Assembly (NCBI GenBank): GCA_028712695.1
Contig: JAQTQZ010000017.1
Span: 1 to 64,000 of the forward strand
Source of the DNA: Methylovulum sp.
Lineage (GTDB): Bacteria; Pseudomonadota; Gammaproteobacteria; Methylococcales; Methylomonadaceae
Reading direction: 5' to 3'
Length of the DNA stretch: 64,000 nucleotides
Shown: one piece after another, positions 52,320 through 59,670 of the stretch
How the letters are laid out: every line of letters begins with the position of its first letter
Numbering within the stretch: the stretch's first letter is position 1
Notes under the pieces: generated by a model
Told to the model about the DNA's origin: nothing
What the model saw: only the letters and a program-made list of their open reading frames with translations
The model's database searches: none
Position numbers and translations under genes: made by a program

Positions 52320-52395
52320 GGGGTGTTAGCTCAGTTGGTAGAGCAGTGGACTCTTAATCCATAGGTCTAGGGTTCGAATCCCTAACACCCCACCA
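52320..52395 (+). tRNA. tRNA-Lys(CTT), intact copy and attL
   Basis: The 76-mer has acceptor GGGGTGT/ACACCCC, D arm AGCTCAGTTGGTAGAGC, anticodon loop CTCTTAA (CTT, Lys) and T arm TAGGGTTCGAATCCCTA, with CCA encoded. Its 3' 44 bases are repeated at 59414-59457, marking it as the integration target of the element that follows. Confidence 0.95.
52352..52395 (+). repeat. attL direct repeat
   Basis: The 44 bases begin TCTTAATCCATAGGTCTA and end in the tRNA CCA. They run from the anticodon loop to the 3' end, the usual core for tRNA-targeting tyrosine integrases. Confidence 0.93.
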
Positions 52396-52450
52396 TAAAA
52401 ATCAAAGGCTTAGCGTGTTTCAATATTTTTTATGTTCGGGATTTTGTAAA

Positions 52451-52721: not shown

Positions 52722-53114
52722 TCAATCGAATATCGCATCGAATGCGGCGTTTTTTATCCGCGCCTTTTTCAACTTGTCGGCTGAATCACTGCCAATGGTT
52801 GATGCTTTCTTTAAGCCTGCCATCATTAGAATCTCTTTAGCGGCTGCCAAGCGCACTTCGTCTTTTGCCGAATCAGTCATCAGTGCAGTGATTGTGCTTA
52901 TCGCCAATGCCGCCGCCGTTTGGATGGCTGCCCGCCCTGAGTCGATAATTTCATGCTTCAGTCCGTTTAAGTGTGCGATAAAAGCATCGTCGGTTTTTAA
53001 CCATTGGTGCAGGGTTTGGCGCGTTGTAGCGGTTTTTTCTGCTGTTTCTGTTATGGTTACGCCAGAAGCAAGTAATGCCGCCGCCTGTAGTTGTTTGGGG
53101 GTTAATGCCGCCAT
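52722..53114 (-). CDS. HTH protein resembling phage terminase small subunits
   Basis: The 130-residue product opens LTPKQLQAAALLASGVTITETAEKTATTRQTLHQWLK, a helix-turn-helix of the phBC6A51/terminase-small type. A helical segment (AIQTAAALAISTITALMTDS) and a C-terminal part DEVRLAAAKEILMMAGLKK follow, a pattern common in phage packaging and plasmid proteins. No large terminase is present in the element, so packaging of its own DNA by a helper, or a purely regulatory role, are both possible. It is the last gene of the element's operon. Confidence 0.6.
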   Translation of the reverse strand: MAALTPKQLQAAALLASGVTITETAEKTATTRQTLHQWLKTDDAFIAHLNGLKHEIIDSGRAAIQTAAALAISTITALMTDSAKDEVRLAAAKEILMMAGLKKASTIGSDSADKLKKARIKNAAFDAIFD

Positions 53115-53120
53115 TTTGTG

Positions 53121-53300
53121 TTACTCCGAAAAATTATCAGGTTTCGTAAGCTTTCGTAATGCCGCCGCCTTTTTTTTCTTGGCGGCTTCGCGGGCAACTG
53201 CAATTCTGTAAGCATCTTCAACTTGCCGTTGTAGGTTTTCGTACCAAGCAATAATTTCTTCGCGCGTTGCTGATGCGTCGATTTCTGGTATTTCAATCAT
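53121..53300 (-). CDS. Small hypothetical protein
   Basis: The 59-residue protein, from ATG 53300, reads MIEIPEIDASATREEIIAWY then a helical, basic tail (AREAAKKKKAAALRKLTK). It is likely a single amphipathic helix pair. It lies between two element genes with short spacing (six bases to the next). I do not recognise a family. Confidence 0.55.
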   Translation of the reverse strand: MIEIPEIDASATREEIIAWYENLQRQVEDAYRIAVAREAAKKKKAAALRKLTKPDNFSE

Positions 53301-53316
53301 TTTTGTTAAATCGCCT

Positions 53317-53805
53317 TTAAACAAATGATTCAATGATAATCCGCTTAACCTGTCGGGTTAGTGGTGCGTCACTATCGAACCTTGCGCCATCAGCTTTAAT
53401 GGCCTTCTCAATCCATACCCTGATTGCTGCGTTATCGGTTAAGCCGTGCTTACGTTGCAATGCCCCTACCAGATAACCTTCTAACATAATGGTGGTGCGT
53501 TTTGATGCAACCGTTAAGGCAAAGTGTGTCTGTTTAAAATCATAAACAGCATTATCCTGTTTAATATCTTGAACAGTGCCGTCCGGTTCAGCCTGTTTAA
53601 CATTTTGAACAGGGTCAAATCGTTCGACGTGCCAGCGATAAATTGCCAGCCTCACGGTATCGGGCAATTTTTTGGCTTTACTGGTAATGCCCAAGCTTTC
53701 TTTGGCTTCCCCTACCAGTTCGGCAATTTTGTTATGGCTTCGCGGTGAACAGCCGTATAAAGCTGCTATTGCATCACCCAGTTTGCCGCTACCATCGTAT
53801 TGCAT
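53317..53805 (-). CDS. Putative ribbon-helix-helix protein carrying intragenic operators
   Basis: In this 162-residue protein, residues 95-140 (VASKRTTIMLEGYLVGALQR, then KHGLTDNAAIRVWIEKAIK) resemble a ribbon-helix-helix DNA-binding unit. The middle has three related peptides, VQNVKQ, VQDIKQ and VYDFKQ, which are the translation of three copies of the palindrome CTGTTTA-N6-TAAACAG. Copies of that palindrome also lie upstream of this gene. I infer a self-regulating DNA-binding or replication-control protein. I do not recognise a named family, and its 3' end overlaps an upstream start of the next gene. Confidence 0.6.
   Translation of the reverse strand: MQYDGSGKLGDAIAALYGCSPRSHNKIAELVGEAKESLGITSKAKKLPDTVRLAIYRWHVERFDPVQNVKQAEPDGTVQDIKQDNAVYDFKQTHFALTVASKRTTIMLEGYLVGALQRKHGLTDNAAIRVWIEKAIKADGARFDSDAPLTRQVKRIIIESFV
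53530..53612. repeat. Three palindromic motifs inside a coding sequence
   Basis: CTGTTTA-AAATCA-TAAACAG (53530-53549, perfect), CTGTTTA-ATATCT-TGAACAG (53557-53576) and CTGTTTA-ACATTT-TGAACAG (53593-53612). The starts are 27 and 36 bases apart, whole numbers of codons, so the peptide repeats stay in frame. They match motifs in the adjacent intergenic DNA. Confidence 0.9.
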
Positions 53806-53812
53806 GATTCAC

Positions 53813-53891
53813 CTGTTTAAAATGTCAAATTATATGATAGTGTAGTTTATTTAAAATGTTAAACAATGGTCTTGTTTAAAATAATAAACAG
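53813..53891. repeat. Intergenic copies of the CTGTTTA palindrome
   Basis: CTGTTTA-AAATGT (left half only, from 53813), TTATTTA-AAATGT-TAAACAA (53847-53866) and TTGTTTA-AAATAA-TAAACAG (53872-53891). They lie directly upstream of the ribbon-helix-helix gene, where operators or replication iterons would be expected. Confidence 0.85.
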
Positions 53892-53997
53892 ACTCACTAA
53901 GCCGACACGGCTTGCACAGGCATTGCGCGAACGCATTGCTGGAATCTGATTAATAACGTGGCATAAAAAAACAGGTGGGTATGGTTATAGTAGGTGT

Positions 53998-54142
53998 GTA
54001 TCAAAATGAGTCACGCAAGGGCTTTGTAAGTCATTGATTTTTTCCTGTTGCGTGTCGCTTTTTAAGACACAAAACCAATTTGGTATTTTTTGTGTCTCAA
54101 AATGAAGCACACAAAATCAATTTGCGTGTCTCATTTTGATAC
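53998..54142. repeat. Nested inverted repeats, 145-bp structured region
   Basis: Outer arms of 21 bases, starting GTATCAAAATGAG (53998-54018) and ending CTCATTTTGATAC (54122-54142), pair with one mismatch. Inside, GACACAAAACCAA (54066-) pairs with TTTGGT...TTTTGTGTC (to 54096), and GTGTCTCAAAATGA (from 54092) repeats the arm motif. No gene is present. It may be an origin, an operator cluster or the end of a transcript. Confidence 0.85.
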
Positions 54143-54149
54143 GGTTGTT

Positions 54150-54533
54150 TTAATTTTCAGGCCGCCATTTTTCCCAGTTGTGCGTAGGCTTTCTGTCTAA
54201 GAATGGCATCCACGTCAACCGCCATTCACGCGCCTTGCTGCCTGTTTTGCTGTTGAAGAAAGACTCAGCATCACAAACAATAAAGCCGCGCTCTTGCAGG
54301 GTTTTGAATGCCTTGCTTGCGGTAGCCGTGGTACAGTGAATCTTGTCAGCGGCTTCACGCACGCCAAAGCCTACGGCTCTATCGTTGCGCCATTGCATTT
54401 GCAACAAATCCATCAATACTTTGGTAGTGGCTGGCATGGTTTCATAAACGCAGGACTCGCGCATTGCCTTTGAGAAGGCTATAACGCCGCCTCTCTGGTC
54501 GAAGCCCAGCTTTGGCTTTTTGTTCTTTGCCAT
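54150..54533 (-). CDS. Winged-helix protein of the mobile-element type
   Basis: From ATG 54533 the product has 127 residues: RGGVIAFSKAMRESCVYETM, then LLQMQWRNDRAVGFGVREAADKIHCTTATASKAFKTLQERGFIV (winged helix) and a Trp-rich tail. Proteins of this pattern are frequent in phages and islands of proteobacteria. A copy of the CTGTTTA motif lies 11-30 bases before the start (54544-54563), so the gene may be under the same control. A longer start at 54572 would read through that motif. Confidence 0.7.
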   Translation of the reverse strand: MAKNKKPKLGFDQRGGVIAFSKAMRESCVYETMPATTKVLMDLLQMQWRNDRAVGFGVREAADKIHCTTATASKAFKTLQERGFIVCDAESFFNSKTGSKAREWRLTWMPFLDRKPTHNWEKWRPEN

Positions 54534-54543
54534 GACTGGTAAC

Positions 54544-54563
54544 CTGTTTAAAATGGCAACAAT
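54544..54563. promoter_or_regulatory. CTGTTTA half-site before the winged-helix gene
   Basis: CTGTTTA-AAATGG-CAACAAT retains the left half and the AAAT core of the element-wide palindrome but not the right half. Its position in the 5' leader suits an operator. Confidence 0.5.
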
Positions 54564-57292: not shown

Positions 57293-57586
57293 TTATGCCG
57301 CGTGTCTATCAAGCGGCTTGATAGTCGGGCGTGGTTTTTGTCTGGCTTGCCAGAGGTCGTATTCTGCCTGCATACGCACCCAACTTTCGGCGGTGGGGCC
57401 GTTCATCCATACCTCAAGCCGAATTGCCATATCCGCACTGATAGCCGCGCGGCCATTGATAACGCGAGACAAGGCAACACGCGACACGCCAAGTTGTGCG
57501 GCGGCTTCAGTCACGCCGATACCCAACTCTGGTAAAACATCTTCCTTCAAAATACTGCCCGGATGGGGCGGGTTAAACATAGTCAT
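57293..57586 (-). CDS. higA: HigA-family antitoxin
   Basis: The 97-residue protein has [20 protein letters not shown] and a Cro/C1 [23 protein letters not shown], then [16 protein letters not shown]. It neutralises HigB and represses the operon. I use ATG 57586, behind AGGTG; a GTG at 57595 is an alternative. It lies four to thirteen bases after higB, the reverse (toxin-first) order normal for higBA. Confidence 0.93.
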
Positions 57587-57598
57587 ATCGAACACCTG

Positions 57599-57877
57599 TT
57601 AGTGATAGTCTTGATAATCGACCAAGATTGCATCTTCGCCTTCAAACCTGAAAGTAAGCCGCCAATTGCCGTTTACTTTTACTGCCCAATGTTCGGCTAG
57701 TTCGCCTTTCAGTTGATGCAGTTTCCAGCCTGCAACATCCATTTCAAGCGGGCTTTTGACGGCATTAAGCAGCGTCAATTGCCTAGCCAGCTTAGCCCCG
57801 TGTTCTGCCGCAATACCTGCTTTCGAACCGGTTTCAAAAAATTGCTGAATGCCTTTGTGCCGGAAACTCTTAATCAT
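57599..57877 (-). CDS. higB: HigB-family toxin (RelE-fold RNase)
   Basis: The 92-residue basic protein starts MIKSFRHKGIQQFFETGSKAGI and ends WAVKVNGNWRLTFRFEGEDAILVDYQDYH, the conserved active region (Arg, Tyr and His) of RelE-like HigB. It cleaves ribosome-bound mRNA. With HigA it forms an addiction module that can stabilise the island. Confidence 0.93.
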   Translation of the reverse strand: MIKSFRHKGIQQFFETGSKAGIAAEHGAKLARQLTLLNAVKSPLEMDVAGWKLHQLKGELAEHWAVKVNGNWRLTFRFEGEDAILVDYQDYH

Positions 57878-57916: not shown

Positions 57917-59245
57917 TTATTTAACGACACGCAAACCCTGTACACCCTGAGACTGGTTAAACTCGATTCCGGCTTGCTCTAACATCCAGGCTTCTATCTT
58001 GATATGCCACATCCGCAACAGGTCGAGGGGGCGGCGGATATAATTTTGTTCCCGCACACCTTGCGGCTTGTGTCCCTGTATTTGGGCGGCGATTCCGGCG
58101 GGGGTTTCTGTCCATTCGCTTAATGTTGCAAAACTTCGGCGTAAACCGTGCAAGGTCATATCCAGCCCGGCAATAGCACACGCCTCATTATGTGCAATGC
58201 GTGGCTCAGTCAGATGACCAGATGCGGCGGTAGGGCTTGAGAATACCCACACATTACGGCGCGGCAATGCAGCCAGCAAGTGCGCCACATAAGGCGTTAG
58301 TGGAATGATGCGGAAGTCCTCAACCTTGTCATGTATGGTTAATTTATTCCACTGAAAATCTACATCCACCCAGCGAAGGGCGGCCAATTCTTCACGGCGG
58401 GAACCGGTCAGTAATAAGCATTGCAGGTATGCGCTGATAACAGGGTTGCCGATTTGCTTAACGGCGGCGAACCATGCGGGCAATTGTTCACGCTGTAACA
58501 CGTCATCTTTAACCTTGGCTTTACCCAGGCTTTCGCGGGCGTCTTTGCTTTTCGCGGCGTTGGTCGTCACGATTGCTTTATAAGCGGGATGTCTAGCGCA
58601 CCAAAAAAGGAACGCTTTCAATAATCGTAGCGAAAGGCGGGCGCGTGTCGGCCTCGTCTCAGCTTCCAGTTTTGCCCACTCTTCCACCCGCTCCGGTGTC
58701 AGGTCTATAAGCCGAACTGTTGCCAGTGATGCGAGCGTACCCGGTTTGGTAAGCTCCGTACTACGGCTTCGCACTGCGCCGCCGGGGTGCATATCTTTTT
58801 CGTGGTCATGGTAATGACTCTCTGACCATTTCGGTTTTCGTGCGGCGATATATTCAGCCCATGCCATCGCAACAGTGACCGATTCACGGGCTTCCTGCAT
58901 CGCAAGCGCGGCGGCTTCCGCTTCCTTAGCTAGTTTCGCGGCTTCCTTGGCTGCCTGTTTATCTGATTTCACTTCGCGCGGGTCGTCGCCATTGTCTATC
59001 ATGATTTGTAAGCGGCGGGCTTCGGTTTGGGCTTCTTGAATGCTCCACACGCTAAGCTTACCGATTGTAATCCGCATAGTTTTACCTTTAACTTTTGACT
59101 GATAAATGTAAACTTTTGCGGTTGAATTTGGTGTTGCCCGAATACCTAGCCCCGGCACTTCTGAACACCATAAAAAATCCTGAGTCTTGGATTCATCACA
59201 CTTAAAGCCTGCAATCCTTCCGGCTGTTAGCTTAACTTTTGCCAT
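57917..59245 (-). CDS. int: P4-type site-specific integrase of the element
   Basis: The 442-residue protein starts at ATG 59245 (MAKVKLTAGRIAGFKCDESK). It has an N-terminal DUF4102 arm-binding domain, a core-binding domain (about 130-225) and a catalytic domain with LTGSRREELAALRW (Arg), HGLRRSFATL (His-x-x-Arg), GHKPQG (His) and QNYIRR (Tyr). The gene sits 169 bases inside attR and the adjacent TTGTAACC sites precede it. It probably integrates at the tRNA-Lys 3' end. Confidence 0.95.
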   Translation of the reverse strand: MAKVKLTAGRIAGFKCDESKTQDFLWCSEVPGLGIRATPNSTAKVYIYQSKVKGKTMRITIGKLSVWSIQEAQTEARRLQIMIDNGDDPREVKSDKQAAKEAAKLAKEAEAAALAMQEARESVTVAMAWAEYIAARKPKWSESHYHDHEKDMHPGGAVRSRSTELTKPGTLASLATVRLIDLTPERVEEWAKLEAETRPTRARLSLRLLKAFLFWCARHPAYKAIVTTNAAKSKDARESLGKAKVKDDVLQREQLPAWFAAVKQIGNPVISAYLQCLLLTGSRREELAALRWVDVDFQWNKLTIHDKVEDFRIIPLTPYVAHLLAALPRRNVWVFSSPTAASGHLTEPRIAHNEACAIAGLDMTLHGLRRSFATLSEWTETPAGIAAQIQGHKPQGVREQNYIRRPLDLLRMWHIKIEAWMLEQAGIEFNQSQGVQGLRVVK

Positions 59246-59262
59246 GAAATACCCCCTAAAAT

Positions 59263-59281
59263 TTGTAACCGATTTGTAACC
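59263..59281 (-). promoter_or_regulatory. Right integrase arm-type sites
   Basis: Two TTGTAACC units 11 bases apart (59263-59270 and 59274-59281), matching the pair near attL. They overlap the region just before the int start, so they may also couple integrase binding to its own expression. Confidence 0.6.
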
Positions 59282-59413
59282 AGAATTACAGTATATAGGT
59301 GAATATAAATCAACACAACAAACAAAGGGTTTATTAACAACATATTGATTTTTATTAAAATAGTTGTTTTTATGAATGGCAATCAACACCAATAAACGCC
59401 TACTTGTTAGGAT

Positions 59414-59457
59414 TCTTAATCCATAGGTCTATGGTTCGAATCCCTAACACCCCACCA
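59414..59457 (+). repeat. attR direct repeat (partial tRNA-Lys)
   Basis: This repeats the last 44 bases of tRNA-Lys, including the CCA, with one substitution (CTATGG for CTAGGG). It is the other side of the element; upstream bases do not form a tRNA. Confidence 0.93.
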
Positions 59458-59670
59458 ATACTTTCAATGCCTTACAAGATTTTCTCTCAGGTCTTTTTCT
59501 TAGCCTACAGCAAATCTGTCACTGCATTCTTTGCTCTTTGTTTTCCCTGCACGTGATATGCCTGATATTAAGGCATGGGCACTGTAAAACAGCAGCCAAT
59601 ATTTCCCATAGAATCAAAGTTGTGGCAAACCAATAACCCTAGAAATCAACTGAAAATCATTTGGCATTAT

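Follow-up and report, generated by a model that had tools for sequence, protein, structure and literature searches.

Gene content of the locus

The window analysed here, a stretch of 64,000 nucleotides of Methylovulum sp. DNA, contains an element delimited by two imperfect copies of a 65-nt repeat, in which both an integrase and a specific att site were found (Table 1). Within it lies the gene for a 162-residue protein, whose coding sequence and leader carry a series of palindromes. The element also encodes a HigB-like toxin and its HTH_3 partner (57293-57877), and contains a 553-codon gene without a Pfam match, and small genes with weak HTH matches. Pfam and PHROG scans of the element recovered no recognised replication gene, primase or initiator, and a partition ATPase was not among the ten element genes scanned with Pfam. 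A cluster of TGTGTGCTTCATTTTGAGACACA-like inverted repeats at 53998-54142, between the winged-helix-like gene and the leader of the 162-residue protein gene, has similar counterparts in two relatives (L044 and L061) and could serve the winged-helix protein as an array of sites of its own.

Replication-module genes do occur in relatives (L008, L049, L007 and L077). Representatives of the genes upstream in relatives matched the D5-type, DUF3987 and DUF927 families, with one SSB, and the integrase cluster was present in 23 of the 41 loci compared. The window element resembles a phage satellite, and with those of its relatives it seems to make up a family of satellite-type elements. The window element resembles the phage-inducible chromosomal islands of Gram-negative bacteria in its integrase, tRNA att repeat, single direction of transcription and small-terminase-like gene, and its relatives resemble them in their helicase/primase genes. 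It differs from those islands in that it is 7.06 kb long without a recognised replication gene, and in that a weak HTH_17 match alone stands in the place of alpA.

Table 1. Coordinates of the 162-residue protein gene, its sites and the surrounding element in the window
Feature	Position	Strand	Basis or remark
162-residue protein gene	53317..53805	-	start codon ATG 53803-53805; stop codon 53317-53319
N-terminal domain, residues 1-64, common to all classes	53614..53805	-	alignment A3 and search with the N-terminal domain
Linker, residues 65-93, with three palindromes	53527..53613	-	sequence and alignment
C-terminal domain, residues 94-162, class A, proposed DNA-binding part	53320..53526	-	alignment and profile comparison; binding putative
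Coding palindrome 1 (VQNVKQ)	53593..53612	-	motif scan, frame, family
Coding palindrome 2 (VQDIKQ)	53557..53576	-	motif scan, frame, family
Coding palindrome 3 (VYDFKQ)	53530..53549	-	motif scan, frame, family
Leader site 1, -86 from the start codon	53872..53891	-	motif scan, family
Leader site 2, -61, overlapping a -35-like TTAACA	53847..53866	-	motif scan, family, promoter scan
Leader site 3, -27, degenerate, adjoining the ribosome-binding region	53813..53832	-	position kept in relatives
-10-like hexamer TACACT between leader sites 2 and 3, at the position conserved in relatives	53839..53844	-	consensus only
70-codon open frame between the 162-residue protein gene and the terminase-like gene, overlapping the end of the former	53121..53333	-	open reading frame list; Pfam and PHROG scans
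Small-terminase-like gene, downstream of the 162-residue protein gene	52722..53114	-	phrog_2538, E 2.4e-11
Winged-helix-like gene (ATG start), upstream; cluster 3 in relatives	54150..54530	-	MarR, E 0.023, below the cut-off
Tyrosine-type integrase gene	57917..59392	-	PF13356 and PF00589
Left att repeat, containing the 3' end of tRNA-Lys (52320-52395)	52348..52412	+	repeat comparison
Right att repeat, 86% identical to the left	59410..59474	+	7062 bases from the left copy

Palindromes in the window and in the genome

The palindrome CTGTTTA-N6-TAAACAG had been described as element-wide in the initial annotation, but its copies in the window group together in the gene of the 162-residue protein and that gene's leader. 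The three coding copies reported there (53530, 53557 and 53593) match with 0, 1 and 1 mismatches, respectively, and all three are read in one frame to give the hexapeptides proposed for them. The three leader copies fared unevenly: that at 53872 stands with 1 mismatch, that at 53847 is degenerate (3 mismatches), and that at 53813 is also degenerate, yet stands where relatives keep their third leader site, at -27. At no more than 1 mismatch, a plus-strand scan of the window gave 4 matches versus 0 in 60 first-order Markov sequences of equal length, and at no more than 3 mismatches the window gave 12 matches versus 3.1 in shuffles (largest shuffle, 8). The palindromes are thus genuine, in numbers far beyond those expected by chance.

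Across the whole genome, matches without mismatch to the degenerate motif TGTTNAANATNNTNAACA fell in only four places, all in the same gene and leader, while at 1 mismatch further matches were scattered and the backwards control motif matched as well (7 + 3). On the whole-genome motif scan and a scan with the family matrix, we rejected a genome-wide or element-wide regulon. A half-site reported at 54544, before the winged-helix gene, did not reach 9 bits when scored with the family matrix, and of the four class A relatives that carry this gene (L044, L061, L009 and L060) none has a site of at least 9 bits before it; on these grounds we rejected the half-site as a member of the system.

Distribution and domain plan of the family

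Of the 311 genomes of the order, 25, representing 7 of 50 genera, contained relatives of the 162-residue protein; with the N-terminal domain alone as query the number was 32. A scan of genome contigs gave 6 loci, the named relatives being Methylobacter, Methyloglobulus and other Methylococcales assemblies. No relative was detected by tblastn in 50,697 phage records, nor in plasmid records; viral contigs yielded a single locus, L013, which repeats sequence also present in L010/L056, and no match to the A2 profile. PHROG gave no match for the window protein or for that of L008, and solved structures gave none for alignment A1 and one, at E 0.26, for A2. A class-wide match in genome G448 was rejected as chance, its longest frames being unrelated to the family, and the A2 profile therefore found no convincing member outside the order in 369 class genomes, a sample that includes the window's own genome.

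In alignment A1 the 16 class A proteins all share one N-terminal and one C-terminal domain, joined by a linker whose length varies, and class B proteins are built alike except that their C-terminal domain is a different one. The C-terminal domains of the two classes are homologous (hhalign probability 98, E 2.7e-14) and differ at the RTTVMLEG / RQVIALDG stretch. The set of 43 open frames gave 19 class A, 18 class B and 4 class C rows, with the fragments L055 and L057 left out. The C-terminal domains of the four classes gave no ribbon-helix-helix match in Pfam, and comparison by hhalign with six ribbon-helix-helix proteins of PF01402 gave 19% for class A, 2% for class B, 40% for class C and 36% for class D, the values for A and B being weak; we use the ribbon-helix-helix label for this putative fold with reserve.

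A tree built from 62 columns of the N-terminal domain in 39 rows required 11 class changes, versus a minimum of 2 and a shuffled mean of 15.7, but its well-supported branches force no more than one class change each, so that exchange of C-terminal domains is suggested at most. The N-terminal domain was also found at the C-terminal end of other proteins (L104 and L112), and it thus seems to be a movable domain. The window's own genome holds a second family member, L053, which belongs to class C and lies on a different contig, flanked on either side by a gene of the integrase cluster.

Codon use in the linker

Linker hexapeptides were chosen by peptide pattern alone, with no DNA criterion, and their codons were compared with those found elsewhere. 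This revealed that in the 41 hexapeptides of 18 class A genes Val was encoded by GTT in 41 of 41 cases (versus 99/228 elsewhere in the same genes) and Lys by AAA in 41 of 41 (versus 151/268), and that the third base at positions 3 (Asp, Asn or Tyr) and 4 (Val, Ile or Phe) was T in all 41. The 79 hexapeptides of 17 class B genes had Val as GTA in 62 of 79 cases (versus 60/193 elsewhere) and Ser as TCA in 75 of 75 (versus 45/188), and position 4 took ten residue types with T as the third base in 78 of 79. Fixed third bases combined with free residues are the reverse of what is expected under selection on the peptide.

The coding sites all lie in one frame (47/47 in class A, 81/81 in class B). 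The second codon of the class A coding copies is CAA in 28 of 47 and TAT in 16 of 47; class A leader copies commonly have TTTAA at this position, which would be a stop in the coding frame. A site lies across the gene's own stop codon in 13 of the 19 class A rows, the window gene not being among them. Class B sites are 36 bp apart in 49 of 65 spacings, and a single gene may contain up to nine coding sites (L046). These results bear out the claim of the initial annotation that the protein repeats and the DNA sites are the same object, with the DNA being what relatives keep, as third bases are fixed and residues vary. The initial annotation had set out beforehand that relatives keeping the peptide and losing the DNA would refute its interpretation; the result was the opposite.

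In another explanation, what spreads would be the peptide repeats or a mobile palindromic repeat, and the DNA symmetry would be incidental. The differing copy number between genes could be taken in this sense, as could an array of class B palindromes outside any recognised gene in L118 (10773-10920, spaced 36, 36 and 55 bp). This explanation is already disfavoured and appears very improbable in the face of third bases that are fixed while residues vary, two classes that share one layout with different sequences, and leader positions that are likewise fixed.

Leader geometry

Class A leaders carry sites at about -86, -61 and -27, all three being present in 12 of 19 rows, and class B leaders at about -90, -65 and -30, in 9 of 18 rows (one of the nine has six sites); neighbouring sites are about 25 and then 34-35 bp apart in either class. 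The remaining class A and B rows have fewer leader sites, with none in L063, one L056 fragment, L047 and L048. Two extra class A sites, 24 bp apart, lie at about -485 and -461 upstream of the gene in L064, beside small open frames. Among the 30 of 37 class A and B leaders with at least two sites, the other 7 being left out, a TAnnnT hexamer was found between the last two sites in 29, versus 0.33 expected from shuffled gaps. A simple promoter scan of the window gave 2 promoter-like sites versus 2.4 in shuffles, which is no excess. The conservation of leader sites around a -10-like hexamer argues for the autoregulation that had been proposed for the protein, and the arrangement can be read as one of autorepression.

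Correspondence of site class and domain class

None of the 37 class A and B rows carried the site of the other class, and none of the four class C rows carried a class A or class B site. That two diverged C-terminal domains go with two palindromes, with no row crossed, supports the earlier proposal that the protein binds the sites. Class A sites numbered 105 in 13,873 bp of gene plus leader versus 6 in the other 222,036 bp of these loci, and class B sites 123 in 13,332 bp versus 2 in 201,085 bp; the site matrices used here, as in the class counts and leader tests, were derived from these same genes, and the density result is partly circular. Sites outside the gene and leader account for 10 of 91 class A rows (11 genomes), and sites away from the gene for 19 of 82 class B rows (12 genomes), in G099, G100 and G241. 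Apart from the L118 array, off-gene class B palindromes occur as pairs about 25 bp apart in L119-L121, as a single copy near a HigB-like gene in L122 and as a single copy in L123. Incompatibility by class is not favoured, as G105, G149, G225, G232 and G228 hold at least two class A genes and G092 and G099 two class B genes each.

Two helicase families (clusters 8 and 13) were found with both class A and class B sites, and the sites therefore follow the family of the 162-residue protein and not the replication protein. This bears on a serious, if unlikely, rival explanation, in which the leader and linker sites would be the element's replication origin and the protein an initiator whose own gene contains its iterons, on the model of phage lambda O. 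We retain this analogy because of the lambda O layout and because, according to PMC6092414, the origin of Gram-negative phage-inducible islands lies just 3' of the replication gene, with two iteron sets. PMC7466680 describes the lambda sites as lying midway within the gene whose product binds them, and reports two additional iterons in Stx phages that lengthen O by 13 residues, so that extra sites lengthen the protein. In this family class-specific sites are repeated inside the gene, as expected of a lambda O type, and a helicase/primase-type gene lies directly upstream in L008, L011, L048 and L063. However, site class does not follow helicase family, the window element lacks a recognised replication gene, an origin would not need leader sites that bracket a promoter-like hexamer, and classes C and D have no coding array. 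The 162-residue protein further differs from lambda O in having no relative in the phage records and no Pfam match, in that its sites also occupy the leader around that hexamer, and in the pairing of two site classes with two domain classes; the lambda sites are the ori-lambda iterons, and here an origin role is a candidate one.

Proposed mechanism

The explanation that we favour, with moderate confidence and from sequence comparison, is that the C-terminal domain binds the sites and represses its own promoter, with the linker-encoded array extending the complex into the gene. The domain would bind the palindrome as a dimer, and since leader sites 1-3 lie over and around the putative promoter, the protein would repress its own transcription. 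Since the flexible linker is encoded by further copies of the same site, the bound complex would continue into the gene, where it could also block transcription from the upstream genes, which have the same orientation, so that less of it would enter the downstream gene resembling a small terminase. On this view the linker peptide would be mostly a by-product of holding DNA sites in an open frame. Autorepression alone hardly needs as many coding sites as the nine of L046, and the weak ribbon-helix-helix match, the lack of promoter excess, the rows without leader sites and the off-gene sites also count against this mechanism.

A segregation or packaging site, centromere- or pac-like, on which the protein would build a large complex and, for example, hand the element to terminase, seems to us rather improbable. 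The large local cluster and the regular 36-bp class B spacing agree with such a role, as does the small-terminase-like or DUF5681 gene (clusters 4 and 20) that lies downstream in 12 of 41 loci and in the window. The terminase label, however, comes from one cluster 20 member and the window, the matches of cluster 4 are to DUF5681 and to a PHROG without assigned function, downstream genes vary, with several loci having neither cluster, and a partition ATPase is missing from the ten window element genes scanned.

Relation to known systems and other site classes

Autorepression by the C-terminal domain would place the family beside autoregulated ribbon-helix-helix proteins such as RelB and MobC of RA3, which are described as having palindromic operators in their own leaders and share the strand-then-helices pattern of the family's C-terminal domain. 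The family differs from these in that its array continues into the coding sequence and its fold is putative. A literature search in a collection that lacks many subscription papers returned no report of this family, of its binding, or of such a coding array outside lambda O.

More tentatively, and with some doubt, we propose that a DNA-binding domain and its own site array are here written in one coding stretch, the linker being an operator or origin array held in an open frame. As domain and sites lie in the same coding stretch, they would be exchangeable together by one recombination, and classes A and B would represent two independent site languages, joined in classes C and D by others confined to the leader. 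The stretch is of interest as part of a gene selected as DNA rather than as protein, in two parallel versions that serve as mutual controls. How a DNA-binding domain changes in step with its sites can be put to the test here, and the protein is a new candidate, either as a regulator or as an origin-binding protein, in the satellite-like elements of methane-oxidising bacteria.

The leaders of the class C genes (L050, L053, L066 and L067) carry the repeat GTTACAT..ATTCA with a 24-bp period, in five copies in L050. Class D genes (L111, L113, L115 and L117) have GTTAC-NN-GTAAC in the leader, and in four of them a single TGTTAC-NN-GTAACA lies within the C-terminal part of the coding sequence. The leader of another class D gene, L116, holds several GTTACCAGTAAC-like copies.
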